This document shows positions 904 through 54,318 of a DNA stretch of 64,000 bases, piece by piece. Below the pieces are notes generated by a model. The model did no database searches. It was not told the origin of the DNA and saw only the letters and a list, made by a program, of their open reading frames with translations. Location: NCBI RefSeq assembly GCF_014083945.1, contig NZ_CP046444.1:2914001-2978000 (forward strand). The letters run 5' to 3'. The number at the start of each line of letters is the position of its first letter. Position 1 is the first letter of the stretch. Position numbers and translations under genes: made by a program. Source of the DNA: Granulicella sp. 5B5. GTDB taxonomy: Bacteria > Acidobacteriota > Terriglobia > Terriglobales > Acidobacteriaceae.

Positions 904-1378
904 GTTTGAAGAGGAGTAGATGAGTAGTGAGTAGAGAAAGGTAACGGCAGAAGCGGATTTGTCCTTCCCTCTCGACTTCGCTTAGGGGAATGACAAGCCA
1001 GAAACGCAAAAGCAAAAGCAACGGCAAGTGCGAAATACAGGGGTCTCTCTGCTCCGGCTGCGCCTCCGGTCGAGATGACGGACGTCTTGTGGGAGGTGGA
1101 GATTCTTGTTGCGCCGGGGTTGAGGAGCGTCGGGGCTTCCATTGAGCCGGGTAGGGGGTTGCGTTGTGGTTCTCCACAGCATACCTTGATCGGGAATGGA
1201 GTAAGAGAGGGGTATGTCACAGGATTCATCGTCCTTTAGCAAAGGTGAGGGCCGGACGCGCTAGGCTTTTAACTGGAAAACCGGCGTGTGAAGAGACCGA
1301 AGGGCCGCGCAGTGGCACGGTAGGGAACGGACGAAGGCTTCGTAAGAGACTGGTTCGGAAGAGACAGGAGCGACACAG
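904..1378. other. Intergenic region with dispersed-repeat fragments
   Basis: Divergent gap between the permease and phoB with no supportable gene. It holds a copy of the CTCCGGTCGAGATGAC repeat (about 1040-1086) that recurs inside the LamG gene at 29346-29422 and 31026-31145. It also holds a GAGGAGTAGATGAGTAG run (913-929) that recurs at 39036-39052. A small perfect palindrome, ACGAAGGCTTCGT, sits at 1331-1343 about 36 bp before phoB and could be an operator or a chance event. Confidence 0.5.
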
Positions 1379-10646: not shown

Positions 10647-10699
10647 TGTGGTGGGTTGAGGGTTGTTCAGATAAGCGAGAAGAAGGCAAGGCAAACGGC

Positions 10700-10758
10700 G
10701 GGCTGAAGCCCATTCCTTTATCAAGGCTATGAGACCCGAGCCTGAAGACTCGGGGTAC
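10700..10758. repeat. Twin-hairpin repeat copy 1
   Basis: Hairpin 1 is GGGC-TGAA-GCCC (10700-10711). After 23 nt comes hairpin 2, CCCGAGCC-TGAA-GACTCGGG (10735-10754), with one C-A mismatch, flanked by TATGAGA on the left and GTACC on the right. Same architecture as copies at 26605, 27914, 29448, 30146, 49364 and 54260. Confidence 0.8.
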
Positions 10759-10800
10759 CGATTTGTGGCCGGTTTGCCGGATGGTTGGTGGTGCTGGAGC

Positions 10801-25700: not shown

Positions 25701-26612
25701 GTGTTGGATGCAGCGTCGTTAGCGAAGCGGTTCCACCTGGTGAAGCTGGTGAGCTTCGATGAGCAGAACGGTCTGACGAGGGTGCATGTGCACTCGGCTG
25801 AGGCGACGGCGACGATCTACCTGCAGGGCGCGCACCTGACGGCGTGGCAGCCCAGCGGGCGGGAGCCCGCGATCTTTTTGAGCAGCAAGTCGGAGTTCGC
25901 GGTGGGGAAGCCGATCCGGGGTGGGGTGCCGGTGGTGTTTCCGTGGTTTGCCAATGACAGCAAGAAGGACCGGGTGGATGGGCATCCGGGGCCGTCGCAT
26001 GGGTTTGCACGGATTCAGGACTGGTCGTTGGATACAGTGGAGCGGCATGGTGACGATGTGCGGCTGGTGTTCACGCAGGGGCCGACGGCGATGAGCCGCA
26101 GTATGGGCTACGACGCGTTCCTGCTGACGCTGGAGTTCCTGATTGGGCCGACACTGACGATGGCGATGACGGTGAAGAATACGGGCTCGCAACCGCTGCA
26201 CTTTGAGGATGCGTTCCATACCTACTACAAGGTGGCCGACATTCACGAGGTGGTCGTGAAAGGGCTGGAGACGACCTCGTTTATCGATAAGACCGATGAC
26301 TTCAAGGTGAAGCCTGCGGCGGGAGAGCCGCTACGGTTTACCAAGCGGACGGACCGGATTTATAACGATACGATCGCGCCGATCACGATCGACGATGTGG
26401 CTGGGCGGCGGAGGATTGTGCTGCACAAGAAGGGGTCCGACACGACGGTGACGTGGAACCAGTTTGGGGAGCTGCCGGACCTGGGGCCGTGGGACTGGCA
26501 TGAGTATGTGGCTATCGAGACGGCGAATGTGGGGCGGAATGCGGTGACGCTCGCCGCTGGGGCGAGCGCCACGCTGGTGGCGCATTCGGTGGTTGGTCCG
26601 CTCCGGGGCTAA
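25701..26612 (+). CDS. Aldose 1-epimerase-like / D-hexose-6-phosphate mutarotase
   Basis: 303 residues, galactose-mutarotase beta-sandwich of the YeaD type: GAHLTAWQPSG near the N-terminus, then RGGVPVVFPWF with the conserved arginine, SHGFAR with the catalytic-type histidine, and FEDAFHTYYKVAD. It interconverts sugar anomers, fitting an L-fucose or hexose pathway. Start is GTG 25701 or TTG 25704, with GAGG at 25694-25697; the TTG has better spacing. Odd feature: the last codons (LRG) and the TAA stop at 26610-26612 lie inside a twin-hairpin repeat, so the repeat has replaced or trimmed the original C-terminus. Confidence 0.85.
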   Translation: MLDAASLAKRFHLVKLVSFDEQNGLTRVHVHSAEATATIYLQGAHLTAWQPSGREPAIFLSSKSEFAVGKPIRGGVPVVFPWFANDSKKDRVDGHPGPSHGFARIQDWSLDTVERHGDDVRLVFTQGPTAMSRSMGYDAFLLTLEFLIGPTLTMAMTVKNTGSQPLHFEDAFHTYYKVADIHEVVVKGLETTSFIDKTDDFKVKPAAGEPLRFTKRTDRIYNDTIAPITIDDVAGRRRIVLHKKGSDTTVTWNQFGELPDLGPWDWHEYVAIETANVGRNAVTLAAGASATLVAHSVVGPLRG

Positions 26613-26666
26613 AGCCCCTTTTGTTGCGGGGCTGATTCGGGGGCCTGAAGGCCCCTGCTCCCTCCC
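26602..26666. repeat. Twin-hairpin repeat copy 2, overlapping the mutarotase stop
   Basis: Hairpin 1 GGGGC-TAAA-GCCCC (26605-26618) has TAAA as its loop and this TAA is the mutarotase stop codon. After 21 nt comes hairpin 2, GGGGCC-TGAA-GGCCCC (26640-26655), then TGCTCCCTCCC. Hairpin 1 is followed by TTTTGTTG, so it could also terminate transcription. Nearly identical to the copy inside the LamG gene at 29448-29510. Confidence 0.85.
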
Positions 26667-27419: not shown

Positions 27420-27905
27420 TCAGCGGCGGGCGTGGAGCTCCTTTTCAGCGGGGTTCTGGGTACGGTCGAGGGAGCCGATGGTGATGTGGTTGTTGAGGAG
27501 CGTGATTTCAGGGATTGGGCCGGGCATCTCGATGGTGAGGGTGTCGGTGGGGACGTCGGTGTTGGCGGGGAGGGGTAGCGTGACGGTGGTGGTTTTGGGG
27601 ATGAGGTCGAGAGGGGCTTTGAGGGTGGGGATGGTGGCTGTGGCGAGGGTCTTGCCGTCGGCGTCGCGGAGGATGAGTTTGGCGGGTTGTGTGTCGATCG
27701 CGCCGAGGGAGTGGACGATGACCTTCATGGTGCGGCCGGTGACCGTGACGTCGTCCGAGCTGATGCCGAGGTCGGGGCGCTGCCAGTAGGGGGTGCCTTT
27801 TTGTTTGAGCGTTAGTTCGATGAGTGTTGTGACGCCGGGCTGGAAGGCGATGGGGAGGGATGAGGAGCGCTCGAAGTTGACGAGCTTTGTCGTGGCGGGG
27901 AAGAG
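27420..27905 (-). pseudogene. Out-of-frame C-terminal domain of the LamG protein
   Basis: Read from just after the repeat at 27914, this stretch encodes RGLLFPATTKLVNFERSSS, then a CARDB-like beta domain with PYWQRPDLGISSDDVTVTG and TMKVIVHSLGAIDTQPAKL, ending EKELHARR. It has strong third-position GC and no internal stop, but is in a different frame from the 27812-31948 gene. It is best explained as the original C-terminal domain, cut off by the last repeat insertion and a nearby 2-bp shift. An ATG at 27728 would permit only a 102-residue remnant. Confidence 0.65.
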
Positions 27906-30900
27906 CAGACCTCGGGGGTTAAAACCCCCTCATTCTTAGCTGCCCCTGTGAGACCCGAGCCTGAAGGCTCGGGGTACCCGAGGGTCGCTGGGGCCGAAGA
28001 TGGCCGGGCCGAAGATGTCAAGGCTGAAGGTGCGGGGGTTGAAGATGCCGGGGTTGATGGATTTGTCGTGCACTGAGAGATCTCCCATTGGCCGGGGTCG
28101 ATTTGGCCGCCGGTCATCTGGGCGGTGATAGGGGCCTTGTCCATGTTGTAGGCGATGATTTTGATGTGGGTGGGGGTGCCGATGGGGACGAGGATGCCGA
28201 TGCTGGTGTCGGGAGTTGGGTCGTCGGGGGTGGGGTCGAAGCGCCAGCTTACGGCGTTGCCGGGGAAGTCGTAGTTGCGCATGAGGGCGACGCCGCCGAG
28301 GCGGCCGCGCTGGAGCTCGCCATTGTTGAAGTAGACGCGGTCGATCCAGAGTGAGCCCTGGCGGTTGACGAACTCGCGGTCGTGGGCGGTCTGGAGCTGC
28401 GAGGTGTAGAGCTTGTCGAGGTAGGTGGTGTCGCCGGTGAGCTGCCACTTGAGCTGGTTGGTGGTCTCAGTGGCGACACCGGAGTCGGTGCGGCGGTTGG
28501 AGGGTTTGGAGTCGAGGAGGTCTTTGCCCCATGTGTCGCGGACGTGGAGCTCGTCGAGAGCGTCGGCGTTGATGGCGAGCAGGGCGGTGGTGGGGTTGTC
28601 GTTGAAGGGCGCGAGGTACTTGGTGTCGTGGGTGAACTCATAGGCTCCCCAGAGGACGAACCAGGGCTGCAGGCCGTTGGAGGGGAGGTCGGCGTTGGTG
28701 TGGAAGTTGACGGTGAAGTGCATTTGCATTTTGCCGTTGGGGCCGGGGCGGCGGTGGGCGAGGAAGCCGTCGGCGGTTTCGGTGATCATCTTTACGGCTT
28801 CGGGGTTGCCGTTGTAGTCGGCGAGGAGGATGGCGGGGTGGTAGACGAAGTAGCTGCGGTCCTTGGCCCAGCCCCAGACGCCGCCGGTGGCCATCTTTGT
28901 GCCGCTGTAGTAGGCGGACTTGATCTGGCGCTGGCCGGCGGAGTTGTAGCCGGTGAGCCACTCGGCTTCGCGTTTGGCGGTGAGCATGGCGCGCTCGATC
29001 TCTTTGGGGTTGCCGTAGTCGATCTGCATGGACTCGCCGAGCATGTTGAGGCCGTCCTCGTAGGAGTGGAGCTCGTCGTACTGCGCGGTGGCGAGGCCGT
29101 TGGTGAACATGCCGTTGTTGTAGATGGCTTCGAGGCCGCGCTCAAGGGAGGTTTTGAGCTTGCCGGGGTTGGAGCCCATCATGGCGAGGCCGGGCCACCA
29201 CTCGAAGAAGTCGGAGTCGTCGGAGAGGCCGCCGCCCATCTCGCCGTCGGAGATCTGGCGGTTGTCGACGTACCAGTCGATGAGGGAGCGGAGTTCGGCG
29301 AGATCGCGGGTCTGGAGCCAGGCCCACTCGGGGACGGTGGCGGGTTTGGCGTCTTGGGTAGAGAAGCGGGTCTCTCCGCTGCGGCCAGCGGCCTCCGGTC
29401 GAGATGACACATTTTGGATGGTGGGGACGGTGGCGGGTACTTCCTCCGGGACTAAAGCCCCTTTTTGTGTGGGGGCATTAGCAGGGGCCTGAAGGCCCCT
29501 GCTCCCTCCCAAAGCGCCCGGCGCTGGCGGCGCGGGTGGCGGGGTGTAGGCGGCGTCGGGCTGTTCGGGGTTCTTTTCGTGCCAGTATTCGAGGGCGAGT
29601 TTGTTGGTGGGGTCGACGCGGAGGAGGTCGGTGATGTCGGCGTCGAAACGATTAAAGAGGTTGAGCTTGCGGCTGTTGACGGACTCCTCGGTCATGTTGG
29701 CGTAGTTGTCGCGGACCTGGGTGAGGCGGTCGGCGATGTGCTCGGGGAGCGCTTCGTCGTAGGGCTTGAAGATGAGGCGGATGTGCGCGCCTTCAAGGGA
29801 TGCAGTGGAGAACTCCGGTGAAGCGGAGGCGATGGTGAGGTAGAGGCTCTGGCCCTTGGGCAGGATGCGGTCGCGGGTGTCGAGCCAGAGGGTGTGGGGC
29901 TCGCCGGGCTTTACGGAGAAGCTGAAGTTGAGCATGTCGCGCATGGGCCAGAGGGGGTCCTTGATGGTGATGTTCATGGGGATGTACTGGCCGTGCGTGG
30001 GCTTGAGGTTGAACGCGGGGAGGTCGATGGCGATGCCGTCGAGGCCGGCGTGGAGGTTCTCCCAGGTGTAGCTGGCACCGTGGCCTTCGTCGGCCTGGAG
30101 GGAGCGGAAGTCGGAGGGGATGATGATGTGGACGAGGGGGAGCGAGGGGGTTAAAACCCCCTCTTTTTTAGAAGATGTTATGAGACCCGACGCTGAAGCG
30201 TCGGGGTACCTGATTGTCGTCGGGGTCGTCGGGGTCGACGGGGCCGAGGATGTCGAAGTTGAGGAATTCTGCTGGCCGTGGCCGATGGAGGTGCGGCCGC
30301 CGCCGACGGAGGCGCCGGGCATGGCGATCATGGTGGCGCGCTGGCCGGCGGGGTAACGGCCTTCGATGAAGTGCGCGAGCGGGGTGACGGTGGGGTTGTC
30401 GTAGGCGGCGTGCGTGGTGATGGCGTAGGAGAGCGTGGCGATACCCGCAGGTGGATTGCCGGGGTGGACGTAGTAGGCGGAGAACTCCTGGATGGGCCAC
30501 TCGTAGTCGGTGTTGGTGAAGCGGACTTTGCCGCCGGTGATGGGCTTGGCGAACTCGTGGGTGGTGAGCTGTTCGCCTTTGGGGCGGTCGAAGAGAGTTT
30601 TGGCGAGGAGTGGCTCGGTGTCTTCCTGGTCGGGGTCGGCTACTGCGTCGGGGCCGCTGCTGGGCGTGAGGAGAGCGACGGTGCCGTAGGCTCCGCCCTG
30701 GATCTCGAGGTGGTTCCACTTCTCGTTGGGCATGTAGAAGGTGACGGACTTGCCGGAGAGGGCGTAGCAGTCCCAGTCGGGGAGCTGGAAGTAGTCATAA
30801 CGGCCAGGGAGACGGGAGCGGTTGTAGACGCCGGGCCAGGTGGTTTCGGCGATGCCGTCGGTGCCCTTCCACCACCAGCGCTTGAGGTCGTAGGCGTCGT

Positions 30901-31948
30901 TGATCTCGACTTTGCGGATGACGGTGTCTTCGGCGGGGAGTGCGGCGGGGATGTCGTTGGGGTGGTCCCAGCCGTGGTTGTAGAGGAAGGCGGTGAAGCG
31001 GGTGGTGGAGGAGATGGCTTCGGTGGTAGAGAAGCGGGTCTCTCCGCTGCGGCCTGCGGCCTCCGGTCGAGATGACACATCATGGGTGGGGCGCTCTGTG
31101 GGAGATGACACTTCTTGGGTGGGGTGTGGCGAGGGAGATGACACATCATGGGTGGGGCTTAAGAGTTGCGGGATGTTGGTGGGGGTTTCGTGCTGGGCTA
31201 GTTGGGCGATGTTGGTGTCGGAGAGGGCGCGGTCGTAGATGCGGAGCTCGTCGAGGTCGCCGCCGCGGTCGTAGTTGTAGCTGGACTCGACGCCCTGCGG
31301 AGAGATGATGCGGGAGTTTGGGCCGAACTGGTCGAGCGCGGTGTCGAAGCGGCCGGTGGGTTTGGCAGTGGCTTCGAGCTTGCCGTTGACGTAGAAACGG
31401 ATGCCGGTGGTCTCGTCCCAGGAGAGGGCGATGTGGGTCCACTGGTCGGAGGCGGGGAATTTGGGGAGCGTGACGCTGACGCGGGTGCGGGCGAGGTTGA
31501 CGTCCGTGACGAAGGCGTCGAAGCCGTGGCCGTTGTAGTCGATGCGGAGCCAGACCATGTCCCAGGAGGAGTGGTCGCCGAAGCCGACGCGGAAGATGGG
31601 GAACTGGGTTTCGTCGACGGGGGTGCGGGAGCGCCAGTCGAAGGCGAGGGTGCCGCGCTGGGAGTAGATGTTGCCGGGAGCCCAGTAGCTGAGGAGCTGG
31701 TTGTCGCCGCACTGGAGGTAGCTGCCTTTGGCGCCGTTGGGGAGGATTTTGACGTCGTGGAGGTAGTTGGGGTCGGCGAGGCCGCTGGCGGCGTAGTCGG
31801 CGCGGAAGCCGTGGTCGCCGGATAGGTAGAAGAGCAGGCCGGGCTCGGGTGCGCGGGGCGAGGCGATGGGTGTGCCTCCGGGCATCTGGGCGGCGAGTGA
31901 AGCGGTGGCGACGAAGAGGACGGGGCCGAGGAGATGCTTGAGGCGCAA
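27812..31948 (-). CDS. Giant secreted LamG-domain protein interrupted by dispersed repeats
   Basis: 1378 residues from a TTG at 31948, with GGAG 7 bp before it and a good signal peptide, MRLKHLLGPVLFVATASLAAQ. A LamG/concanavalin-like domain (about 30-255: YVNGKLEATAK, DLDELRIYDRALSD) is followed by a second beta domain (HGWDHPNDIPAALP, YMPNEKWNHLEIQGG), a third (about 600-720), and an alpha-helical region (EWWPGLAMMG, DELHSYEDGLNMLGES, YYSGTKMATGGVWGWAKD) like an (alpha/alpha)-barrel glycoside-processing enzyme. Domains are joined by low-complexity linkers encoded by dispersed repeats (31026-31165, 30146-30210, 29448-29510, 29346-29422). The 3' end runs out of frame after 28075 and the CARDB-like C-terminus is lost. 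Function unknown, probably polysaccharide-related. Possibly a decaying gene. Confidence 0.65.
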   Translation of the reverse strand: MRLKHLLGPVLFVATASLAAQMPGGTPIASPRAPEPGLLFYLSGDHGFRADYAASGLADPNYLHDVKILPNGAKGSYLQCGDNQLLSYWAPGNIYSQRGTLAFDWRSRTPVDETQFPIFRVGFGDHSSWDMVWLRIDYNGHGFDAFVTDVNLARTRVSVTLPKFPASDQWTHIALSWDETTGIRFYVNGKLEATAKPTGRFDTALDQFGPNSRIISPQGVESSYNYDRGGDLDELRIYDRALSDTNIAQLAQHETPTNIPQLLSPTHDVSSPSPHPTQEVSSPTERPTHDVSSRPEAAGRSGETRFSTTEAISSTTRFTAFLYNHGWDHPNDIPAALPAEDTVIRKVEINDAYDLKRWWWKGTDGIAETTWPGVYNRSRLPGRYDYFQLPDWDCYALSGKSVTFYMPNEKWNHLEIQGGAYGTVALLTPSSGPDAVADPDQEDTEPLLAKTLFDRPKGEQLTTHEFAKPITGGKVRFTNTDYEWPIQEFSAYYVHPGNPPAGIATLSYAITTHAAYDNPTVTPLAHFIEGRYPAGQRATMIAMPGASVGGGRTSIGHGQQNSSTSTSSAPSTPTTPTTIRYPDASASGLITSSKKEGVLTPSLPLVHIIIPSDFRSLQADEGHGASYTWENLHAGLDGIAIDLPAFNLKPTHGQYIPMNITIKDPLWPMRDMLNFSFSVKPGEPHTLWLDTRDRILPKGQSLYLTIASASPEFSTASLEGAHIRLIFKPYDEALPEHIADRLTQVRDNYANMTEESVNSRKLNLFNRFDADITDLLRVDPTNKLALEYWHEKNPEQPDAAYTPPPAPPAPGALGGSRGLQAPANAPTQKGALVPEEVPATVPTIQNVSSRPEAAGRSGETRFSTQDAKPATVPEWAWLQTRDLAELRSLIDWYVDNRQISDGEMGGGLSDDSDFFEWWPGLAMMGSNPGKLKTSLERGLEAIYNNGMFTNGLATAQYDELHSYEDGLNMLGESMQIDYGNPKEIERAMLTAKREAEWLTGYNSAGQRQIKSAYYSGTKMATGGVWGWAKDRSYFVYHPAILLADYNGNPEAVKMITETADGFLAHRRPGPNGKMQMHFTVNFHTNADLPSNGLQPWFVLWGAYEFTHDTKYLAPFNDNPTTALLAINADALDELHVRDTWGKDLLDSKPSNRRTDSGVATETTNQLKWQLTGDTTYLDKLYTSQLQTAHDREFVNRQGSLWIDRVYFNNGELQRGRLGGVALMRNYDFPGNAVSWRFDPTPDDPTPDTSIGILVPIGTPTHIKIIAYNMDKAPITAQMTGGQIDPGQWEISQCTTNPSTPASSTPAPSALTSSARPSSAPATLGYPEPSGSGLTGAAKNEGVLTPEVCSSPPRQSSSTSSAPHPSPSPSSPASQHSSN
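27914..27979. repeat. Twin-hairpin repeat copy 3, in the 3' part of the LamG gene
   Basis: Hairpin 1 GGGGGT-TAAA-ACCCCC (27914-27929), 24-nt spacer, hairpin 2 CCCGAGCC-TGAA-GGCTCGGG (27954-27973) followed by GTACCC. On the minus strand it is read as GYPEPSGSGLTGAAKNEGVL in the frame of the LamG gene, but contains a TAA (27936-27938) in the frame used by the downstream C-terminal domain. Confidence 0.85.
29330..29438. repeat. Dispersed repeat flanked by a 16-bp duplication, inside the LamG gene
   Basis: GGGGACGGTGGCGGGT occurs at 29330-29345 and again at 29423-29438, exactly 93 bp (31 codons) apart. Between them lies a copy of the GGTCTCTCCGCTGCGG...CTCCGGTCGAGATGACAC repeat, with the internal hairpin CCGCTG-CGGC-CAGCGG. 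The unit is a multiple of three, so the LamG frame is kept. The flanking duplication looks like an insertion scar or a repeat-mediated duplication. Confidence 0.75.
29446..29512. repeat. Twin-hairpin repeat copy 4, inside the LamG gene
   Basis: Hairpin 1 GGGAC-TAAA-GCCCC (29448-29461, one mismatch), 19-nt spacer, hairpin 2 GCAGGGGCC-TGAA-GGCCCCTGC (29481-29502, 9 perfect pairs), then TCCCTCCC. On the minus strand it reads GSRGLQAPANAPTQKGALV in the LamG frame. It is the same subtype as the copy at the mutarotase stop. Confidence 0.85.
30146..30210. repeat. Twin-hairpin repeat copy 5, inside the LamG gene
   Basis: Hairpin 1 GGGGGT-TAAA-ACCCCC (30146-30161), 24-nt spacer with TCTTTTTT, hairpin 2 CCCGACGC-TGAA-GCGTCGGG (30186-30205) then GTACC. 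Compared with the copy at 27954 the two stem bases that differ (AGCC/GGCT versus ACGC/GCGT) change on both arms. It reads YPDASASGLITSSKKEGVL in the LamG frame. Confidence 0.85.
31026..31168. repeat. Dispersed repeat with a 33-bp tandem array, inside the LamG gene
   Basis: A copy of the TCTCTCCGCTGCGGCCTGCGG repeat family ends in GAGATGACAC at 31069. GAGATGACAC then recurs at 31102 and 31135, giving an exact 33-bp period. On the minus strand this encodes three 11-residue units beginning PTHDVSS, PTQEVSS and PTHDVSS. The array forms the linker after the LamG domain. Confidence 0.75.
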
Positions 31949-32050
31949 AGGGGTGCTCCGAAAGCTGCAGGCGTTTGGCGACGCGCGCAGAGGGGTGAGG
32001 CAAGTCGGAGGGATTATTCGCCTGTCAGACAGGTGTTGGCAATGGAGAGG

Positions 32051-32082
32051 TAGGGAGCAGGGAATAGGGAGTAGGGAGTAAA
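32051..32082. repeat. Heptamer simple repeat TAGGGAG
   Basis: TAGGGAG, CAGGGAA, TAGGGAG, TAGGGAG in tandem, then TAAA, upstream of the LamG gene. A related three-unit run lies at 49021-49045. Confidence 0.7.
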
Positions 32083-49347: not shown

Positions 49348-49363
49348 AAGAAGGGCATACCCC

Positions 49364-49427
49364 AGGGGCTGAAGCCCCTTTCTGCTTTAGAGGTCTATGA
49401 GACCCGACCCTGAAGGGTCGGGGTACC
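49364..49427. repeat. Twin-hairpin repeat copy 6
   Basis: Hairpin 1 AGGGGC-TGAA-GCCCCT (49364-49379), 23-nt spacer, hairpin 2 CCCGACCC-TGAA-GGGTCGGG (49403-49422), then GTACC. Lies between duplicated element B and the 3' end of receptor 3. Third variant of the covarying stem (ACCC/GGGT). Confidence 0.85.
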
Positions 49428-49494
49428 TAGAAGCAACGACAAAAGCCAAGACAAGAGCAAGGACACAAGCAGATCATTCGTTGCGCTCAGGACG

Positions 49495-54251: not shown

Positions 54252-54318
54252 TCCCTCCGGGGCTAAAGCCCATCTATCTTTCGGGAGTGGTGGACGTACG
54301 AGCTGAAGCTCGTACCCT
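54252..54318. repeat. Twin-hairpin repeat copy 7, providing the permease ribosome-binding site
   Basis: Hairpin 1 GGGC-TAAA-GCCC (54260-54271), 24-nt spacer, hairpin 2 GTACGAGC-TGAA-GCTCGTAC (54296-54315). At the left end, TCCCTCC (54252-54258) is the complement of the GGAGGGA Shine-Dalgarno of the permease gene. The same TCCCTCC block ends the copies at 26605 and 29448. Confidence 0.8.

Follow-up and report, generated by a model that had tools for sequence, protein, structure and literature searches.

Small mobile repeats appear to keep lengthening working proteins in the soil acidobacterium Granulicella sp. 5B5. Within the 64,000-nucleotide stretch of its genome analysed here, hereafter the window, a single gene for a secreted multi-domain protein holds five repeat copies, which lie at four sites and belong to three families (A, B and C). 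The linkers that these copies contribute are very probably short mobile repeats that were inserted after the gene split from its nearest sampled relatives and that are translated as disordered segments.

The gene begins at a TTG start codon at position 31948 and encodes a signal-peptide-like N-terminus. A LamG domain (PF13385, E 1e-14) is the only one recognised by a domain search of the protein, and relatives were found at 75 loci that range from Acidobacteriota to Opitutaceae and Bacteroidales. An enzymatic function was considered and dropped, as the fold-search matches were taken up by the concanavalin-A-like jelly roll at the N-terminus, and this lectin fold is shared widely and indicates no function. 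The original prediction had located the gene correctly, and we corrected its strand to minus. The five repeats that it had described within the gene were all found where it had placed them, and they fall into three families. The copies that it had noticed in intergenic DNA elsewhere in the window are likewise present, always between genes (Table 1). Its three twin hairpins at 27914, 29448 and 30146 are indeed hairpins, but rather than a single kind they represent two families, A and B, with separate transposases.

Table 1. Repeat copies and gene features in the window (positions counted from its first nucleotide).
Feature	Position	Strand	Remarks
Secreted multi-domain gene, N-terminal LamG (PF13385)	27812..31948	-	ORF as now read, ~1378 aa
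Original C-terminal ~150 residues	27420..27898	-	now in another frame than the rest of the gene; stop aligns with orthologue end
Family C repeat	31031..31080	+	minus-strand reading VSSRPEAAGRSGETRF; within 138-nt in-frame insert
Family A twin-hairpin REP	30145..30213	+	reading RYPDASASGLITSSKKEGVLTP; within 93-nt in-frame insert (~30146-30241)
Family B twin-hairpin REP	29446..29509	+	reading GGSRGLQAPANAPTQKGALVP; within clean 186-nt in-frame insert (29345-29530)
Family C repeat, second copy	29363..29412	+	reading VSSRPEAAGRSGETRF; shares the 186-nt insert with the B copy at 29446
Family A twin-hairpin REP	27905..27981	+	insert 140 nt net; frame shifted, C-terminal domain out of frame
Family A, intergenic	10692..10759	+	
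Family A, intergenic	49355..49428	+	
Family B	26603..26665	+	end of or after a plus-strand gene
Family B, weak, intergenic	54257..54308	+	
Family C, intergenic	1041..1079	+	

Aligned orthologues run without gaps across each insert site and lack all the linkers. The stretches private to the window protein are residues ~287-340, 598-629 and 835-896, together with the broken C-terminus. The closest view of these empty sites comes from a congener (G006, locus L151), in which the gene occupies the same neighbourhood with 81% nucleotide identity and carries none of the linkers. The cleanest of them reads ...CCACCCAC followed directly by ACCCGCC... in the congener DNA, where the window has 186 extra bases that contain one B and one C copy. 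Net insert lengths at the four sites, relative to the congener, are 138, 93, 186 and 140 nt; the first of these inserts spans about 31035-31172 and also contains two partial family C copies (31102 and 31135). The 138-, 93- and 186-nt inserts are multiples of three against all three reference orthologues, and the 140-nt insert is 2 modulo 3 against all three, which agrees with the earlier count of four copies in frame out of five. That reading also survives the two checks proposed with it, as an alignment of orthologues finds exactly these linkers missing and a genome search with each repeat recovers copies dispersed throughout.

Across the 3.93-Mb genome, searches that each scored about 40 candidates returned 42 matches for A, 40 for B and 36 for C. 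A genome search with PF01797 found three Y1 transposase genes, two of which exceed the curated REP_Tyr_transpos cut-off (NF047646) and encode REP-associated tyrosine transposases (RAYTs): one (L177) is flanked by inverted copies of A, and the other (L176) by inverted copies of B. The third gene (1405-1857 of locus L175) is flanked by another hairpin type (GGGGCGTAGCCCC / GGGCTGAAAGCCC). Folding against shuffled sequences supports two hairpins in A and one strong hairpin in B, with z between -2.4 and -5.9 for the window copies and weaker values for the B consensus. Families A and B are thus short hairpin palindromes present in many copies, each with a cognate RAYT flanked by inverted copies, and 31 of 40 A, B and C copies in an unbiased sample of the genome (described below) lie outside genes, in keeping with the predominantly extragenic location of REPs. 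Judged from these sequence features, we class both as RAYT-linked, REP-type twin hairpins. GTAG adjoins the stem in about 6 of 30 A copies, with GTAC in most of the others, and B has neither; by this stem-adjacent tetranucleotide, both families would be closer to the acidobacterial TIRYT class.

Family C, which reads TGTCATCTCGACCGG...GCGGAGAGACC on the minus strand, reaches numbers like those of A and B, and no transposase gene was found for it in the genome. Its minus-strand consensus, ATGTGTCATCTCGACC, has a terminal CGTC or TGTC tag followed by AT, and lacks the 8-9 bp stem closing a short loop that the CGTC class of REPs, to which RPE-4 and RPE-6 belong, requires. We have not filed C in that class because it folds no better than shuffled sequence (z about 0), a result that leaves C unsupported as a hairpin element; the GAGATGACAC family of the original prediction accordingly does not form hairpins above shuffled sequence. 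Other repeats were seen beside these three. A family D repeat (GGTGCCCCATCTTCGCCGACGGCTTCATCGTCGGCTAAGGTGGG), read as LGAPSSPTASSSAKVGS, lies inside several genes and on both gene strands (L163, L109, L173, L082 and L192). Runs like GGGAGCAGGGAATAGGGAGTAGGG are intergenic at 32049-32080 of the window, and similar runs are apparently read as PYSLLPTP-type peptides in proteins (L162 and L164); they are perhaps another repeat family.

Repeats also lie inside the genes for MetRS, AsnRS, TrpE, NagA, an ABC exporter and an Lhr helicase. Five of these proteins (MetRS, AsnRS, TrpE, NagA and the ABC exporter) were checked against solved homologues, which lack the inserts and to which homology resumes past the repeats; by this comparison, MetRS and TrpE have two inserts each, one of those in TrpE being family D, and AsnRS, NagA and the ABC exporter also carry inserts. 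The linkers read, for example, GGSSGLQATESGSPNEEALAPG in MetRS and GGSSGLQATELGFSTNGALAPE in the ABC exporter. Spurious fusion of open reading frames over intergenic repeats is ruled out for the five proteins by alignment to the solved structures on both flanks, and congeners exclude it too in the case of MetRS and the ABC exporter. Separately, the Lhr-type helicase gene (L171/L130/L082/L192, 2.768-2.772 Mb) holds four A, B or C copies and one D, and rivals the gene reported here.

The congeners also point to repeated use of the same sites. In the ABC exporter, the loop between the first strands of the ATPase domain contains repeats in five species and is short in 21 among 26 genomes of the genus; the nearest relative, at 91% identity, is among those with an empty loop. 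B or B-like peptides occupy this loop in three of the genomes (G000, which is that of Granulicella sp. 5B5, G026 and G027), a fourth (G024) has a D and an A repeat there, and the loop of G002 (L234) has a different, CGTC-like repeat (IRHSERSAAESKN). Several congeners share the B-type insert that follows KMSKS in MetRS, and the C insert of this enzyme, in a loop of naturally variable length, is private to the Granulicella sp. 5B5 genome. Taken together, these sequences suggest that insertion recurs independently in the same loops among congeners.

Genome-wide numbers come from searches and sampled stretches, with genes called by a strand-specific gene finder. The window and the loci fetched by the repeats together hold 130 distinct copies, 32 of them intragenic, and 31 of these 32 lie in genes antisense to the repeat. 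Because these loci had been chosen by the repeats themselves, we took an unbiased sample of twenty 15-kb stretches (300 kb of the genome), in which all 40 copies have one orientation relative to the local GC skew. Nine of the 40 lie in frame inside genes, all nine on the C-rich strand, even though the two strands have nearly the same coding length (105.6 kb against 105.9 kb). These nine copies represent six genes, which makes the strand result weaker by gene than by copy. Extrapolated from nine in 300 kb, the whole genome would contain roughly 500 copies, about 100 of them intragenic and in frame. The intergenic copies are skewed too: two lie between plus-strand gene pairs and 17 between minus-strand pairs, against baselines of 62 and 46 (Fisher p 1e-4). 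All 12 closely spaced intergenic copies that were checked separate different genes, and none sits inside a broken gene. Stop codons are insufficient as the sole cause of this strand rule, as plus-strand frames are often open too.

Throughout, the leading strand is defined by the sign of the GC skew only. The skew itself is very strong, at about +0.2 to +0.37 over most of the window whatever the gene direction and with a magnitude of about 0.3 elsewhere. Its sign flips in many blocks along one chromosome, which suggests many inversions, and repeat orientation tracks the flips. Two stretches (L188 at 2.00 Mb and L195 at 3.33 Mb) have nearly zero skew and no A, B or C repeats, and are probably recently acquired DNA.

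At the protein level, one reading of family C is favoured. Its minus frames are open in 32, 32 and 25 of 35 intergenic copies, yet 12 of the 13 copies inside genes are read in the VSSRPE frame, which hardly contains cysteine, unlike the other two frames, where this residue occurs. In an AlphaFold model of the reported protein (31 relatives; model residue i corresponds to protein residue i+59), pLDDT is about 24-40 across each of the three in-frame inserts and mostly exceeds 80 in the surrounding residues, so the in-frame linkers are predicted to be unstructured. We infer that the linker peptides are translated.

The fourth insert breaks the reading frame. The original prediction had one of the five copies out of frame, and this is the copy it placed at 27914: the true, original C-terminus does not share the frame of the stop at 27812 and continues in another frame to 27420. 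Past the 140-nt insert, that frame stays open as far as a stop that lines up with where the orthologue from Granulicella paludicola ends. Such a break, displacing the C-terminus, is what might be expected of a decaying pseudogene that collects repeats neutrally and whose in-frame copies are due to luck, and the chance of at least four of five copies falling in frame is 0.045. We nevertheless consider decay improbable. Compared with a related locus (L002), the upstream ~1000 codons have a Ka/Ks near 0.13 (0.173/1.371), a ratio by which the gene does not look like a pseudogene; similar in-frame insertions occur in MetRS, AsnRS, TrpE and other proteins that must work; and the displaced C-terminus (Ka 0.26 and Ks 1.30 against L002) has not diverged further than two intact lineages have from one another (0.425 and 1.24), so the frameshift is either recent or a sequencing error. 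The latter case, in which the hairpin was missequenced or misassembled and all five copies are in fact in frame, would refine the preferred explanation rather than replace it. It is conceivable, if short of an even chance: the net 140 nt is one base below 141, the copy at 27905 holds G/C homopolymer hairpins, and the downstream frame is open up to the conserved end and still constrained, whereas the genome is a single contig with 99.8% completeness.

Two further alternatives would deny the inserts their role as new protein segments. Removal after transcription, through RNA processing or ribosomal bypassing, would keep them out of proteins altogether, and the hairpin nature of inserts within essential genes, together with the open, undecayed frame past the 140-nt insert, might favour it. 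Removal, however, would need neither multiples of three nor one favoured, cysteine-poor frame, both of which are observed, and we regard it as very unlikely. The linkers might instead be ancestral, functional parts of these proteins that merely resemble repeats. The MetRS insert after KMSKS, shared by several congeners, does indicate that some inserts are old or recurrent, but linkers are missing from the nearest relatives of the reported gene and of the ABC exporter, different repeats occupy the same loop, and the same DNA is found between genes. The orthologue alignments rule the linkers out as ancestral domains, and an ancestral origin is the least credible reading of all.

We therefore return to insertion of mobile repeats, for which a mechanism can be proposed. 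Families A and B would probably have spread by transposition through the two REP-associated tyrosine (HUH/Y1) transposases that they flank. Enzymes of the RAYT class are believed to work on the single-stranded DNA of replication forks, and their IS200/IS605 relatives prefer the lagging-strand template (PMC6006769); such single-stranded, fork-linked transposition would therefore fix repeat orientation relative to GC skew. Copies landing between genes would persist, and selection would remove most coding insertions, sparing those whose net length is a multiple of three, whose peptide is benign and soluble and which lie in tolerant loops or at domain junctions. The survivors would be translated as disordered extra segments, presumably neutral rather than beneficial. 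Several components are direct observations, namely the absence from orthologues, the frame, the identity of the repeats, their genome-wide copies and orientation, the linkage to transposases, the placement in loops and the reading-frame preference. No clean target-site signature is established because the inserts are compound, the strand bias of surviving intragenic copies is only partly explained, and the fourth insert, which breaks the frame, shows that tolerance is not absolute. A broader proposal seems to us evenly balanced: that REPs continually supply in-frame loop insertions, polarised by replication, throughout the genus, that their fork-fixed orientation goes with survival almost only in the genes of one strand, and that permissive loops of essential enzymes are recolonised by different families.

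In-frame intragenic REPs are already known as a kind, from Rickettsia and Opitutus. Rickettsia palindromic elements are dispersed, lie in frame within many unrelated genes, where they are read as extra peptides, and also occur between genes (PMC10969869, PMC3733652). The likeness to them drawn in the original prediction is apt, as in-frame insertion, unrelated host genes and a conserved reading frame are all found here, and RPE-1, RPE-4 and RPE-6 similarly combine in-frame copies in unrelated genes with intergenic ones. The Granulicella repeats differ in belonging to another phylum and, for A and B, in being linked to RAYTs; the likeness is one of behaviour, and membership among the RPEs is not claimed. 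According to Di Nocera 2013 (PMC3733652), intragenic GTAG and CGTC REPs of Opitutus terrae, Thauera and sphingomonads form dimers that encode 20-30 aa within known proteins, tRNA synthetases and enzymes of repair among them, and some genes have two. Granulicella differs from these in several ways: three to four families occur in the same genes, a gene may contain as many as five copies, roughly one copy in four is intragenic, insertion recurs in one loop in several congeners, and the strand rule is strict. The same text describes acidobacterial TIRYT/TIRtron genes (in T. saanensis, K. versatilis, A. capsulatum and G. mallensis), IS200-like tyrosine transposases whose flanking inverted repeats can be dispersed in the genome; they resemble the Granulicella genes in these flanking, dispersible repeats, and as far as that text extends it reports no protein-coding copies for those species. 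REPINs, too, consist of two palindromes and have their cognate RAYT (Bertels and Rainey 2011, PMC3116915), and descriptions of REPs place them mostly outside genes (PMC6006769, PMC12306157), whereas many Granulicella copies are intragenic. In the open-licence literature we found in-frame repeats reported for no Granulicella-like genome, and the descriptions that we did find fall short of the density, the several families in one gene, the same-loop recurrence across the genus and the strictness of the strand pattern seen here.

Protein-coding palindromic repeats have so far been mostly a curiosity of the obligate intracellular Rickettsia and a few scattered genomes. With about 100 in-frame copies by extrapolation, some of them in essential enzymes, with transposase genes present, relatives that retain empty sites and apparently independent events in the same loops, Granulicella sp. 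5B5 offers a direct test of whether new protein segments are built from mobile repeats, and of their neutrality or usefulness, in a genome where the survival of insertions is linked to gene strand.
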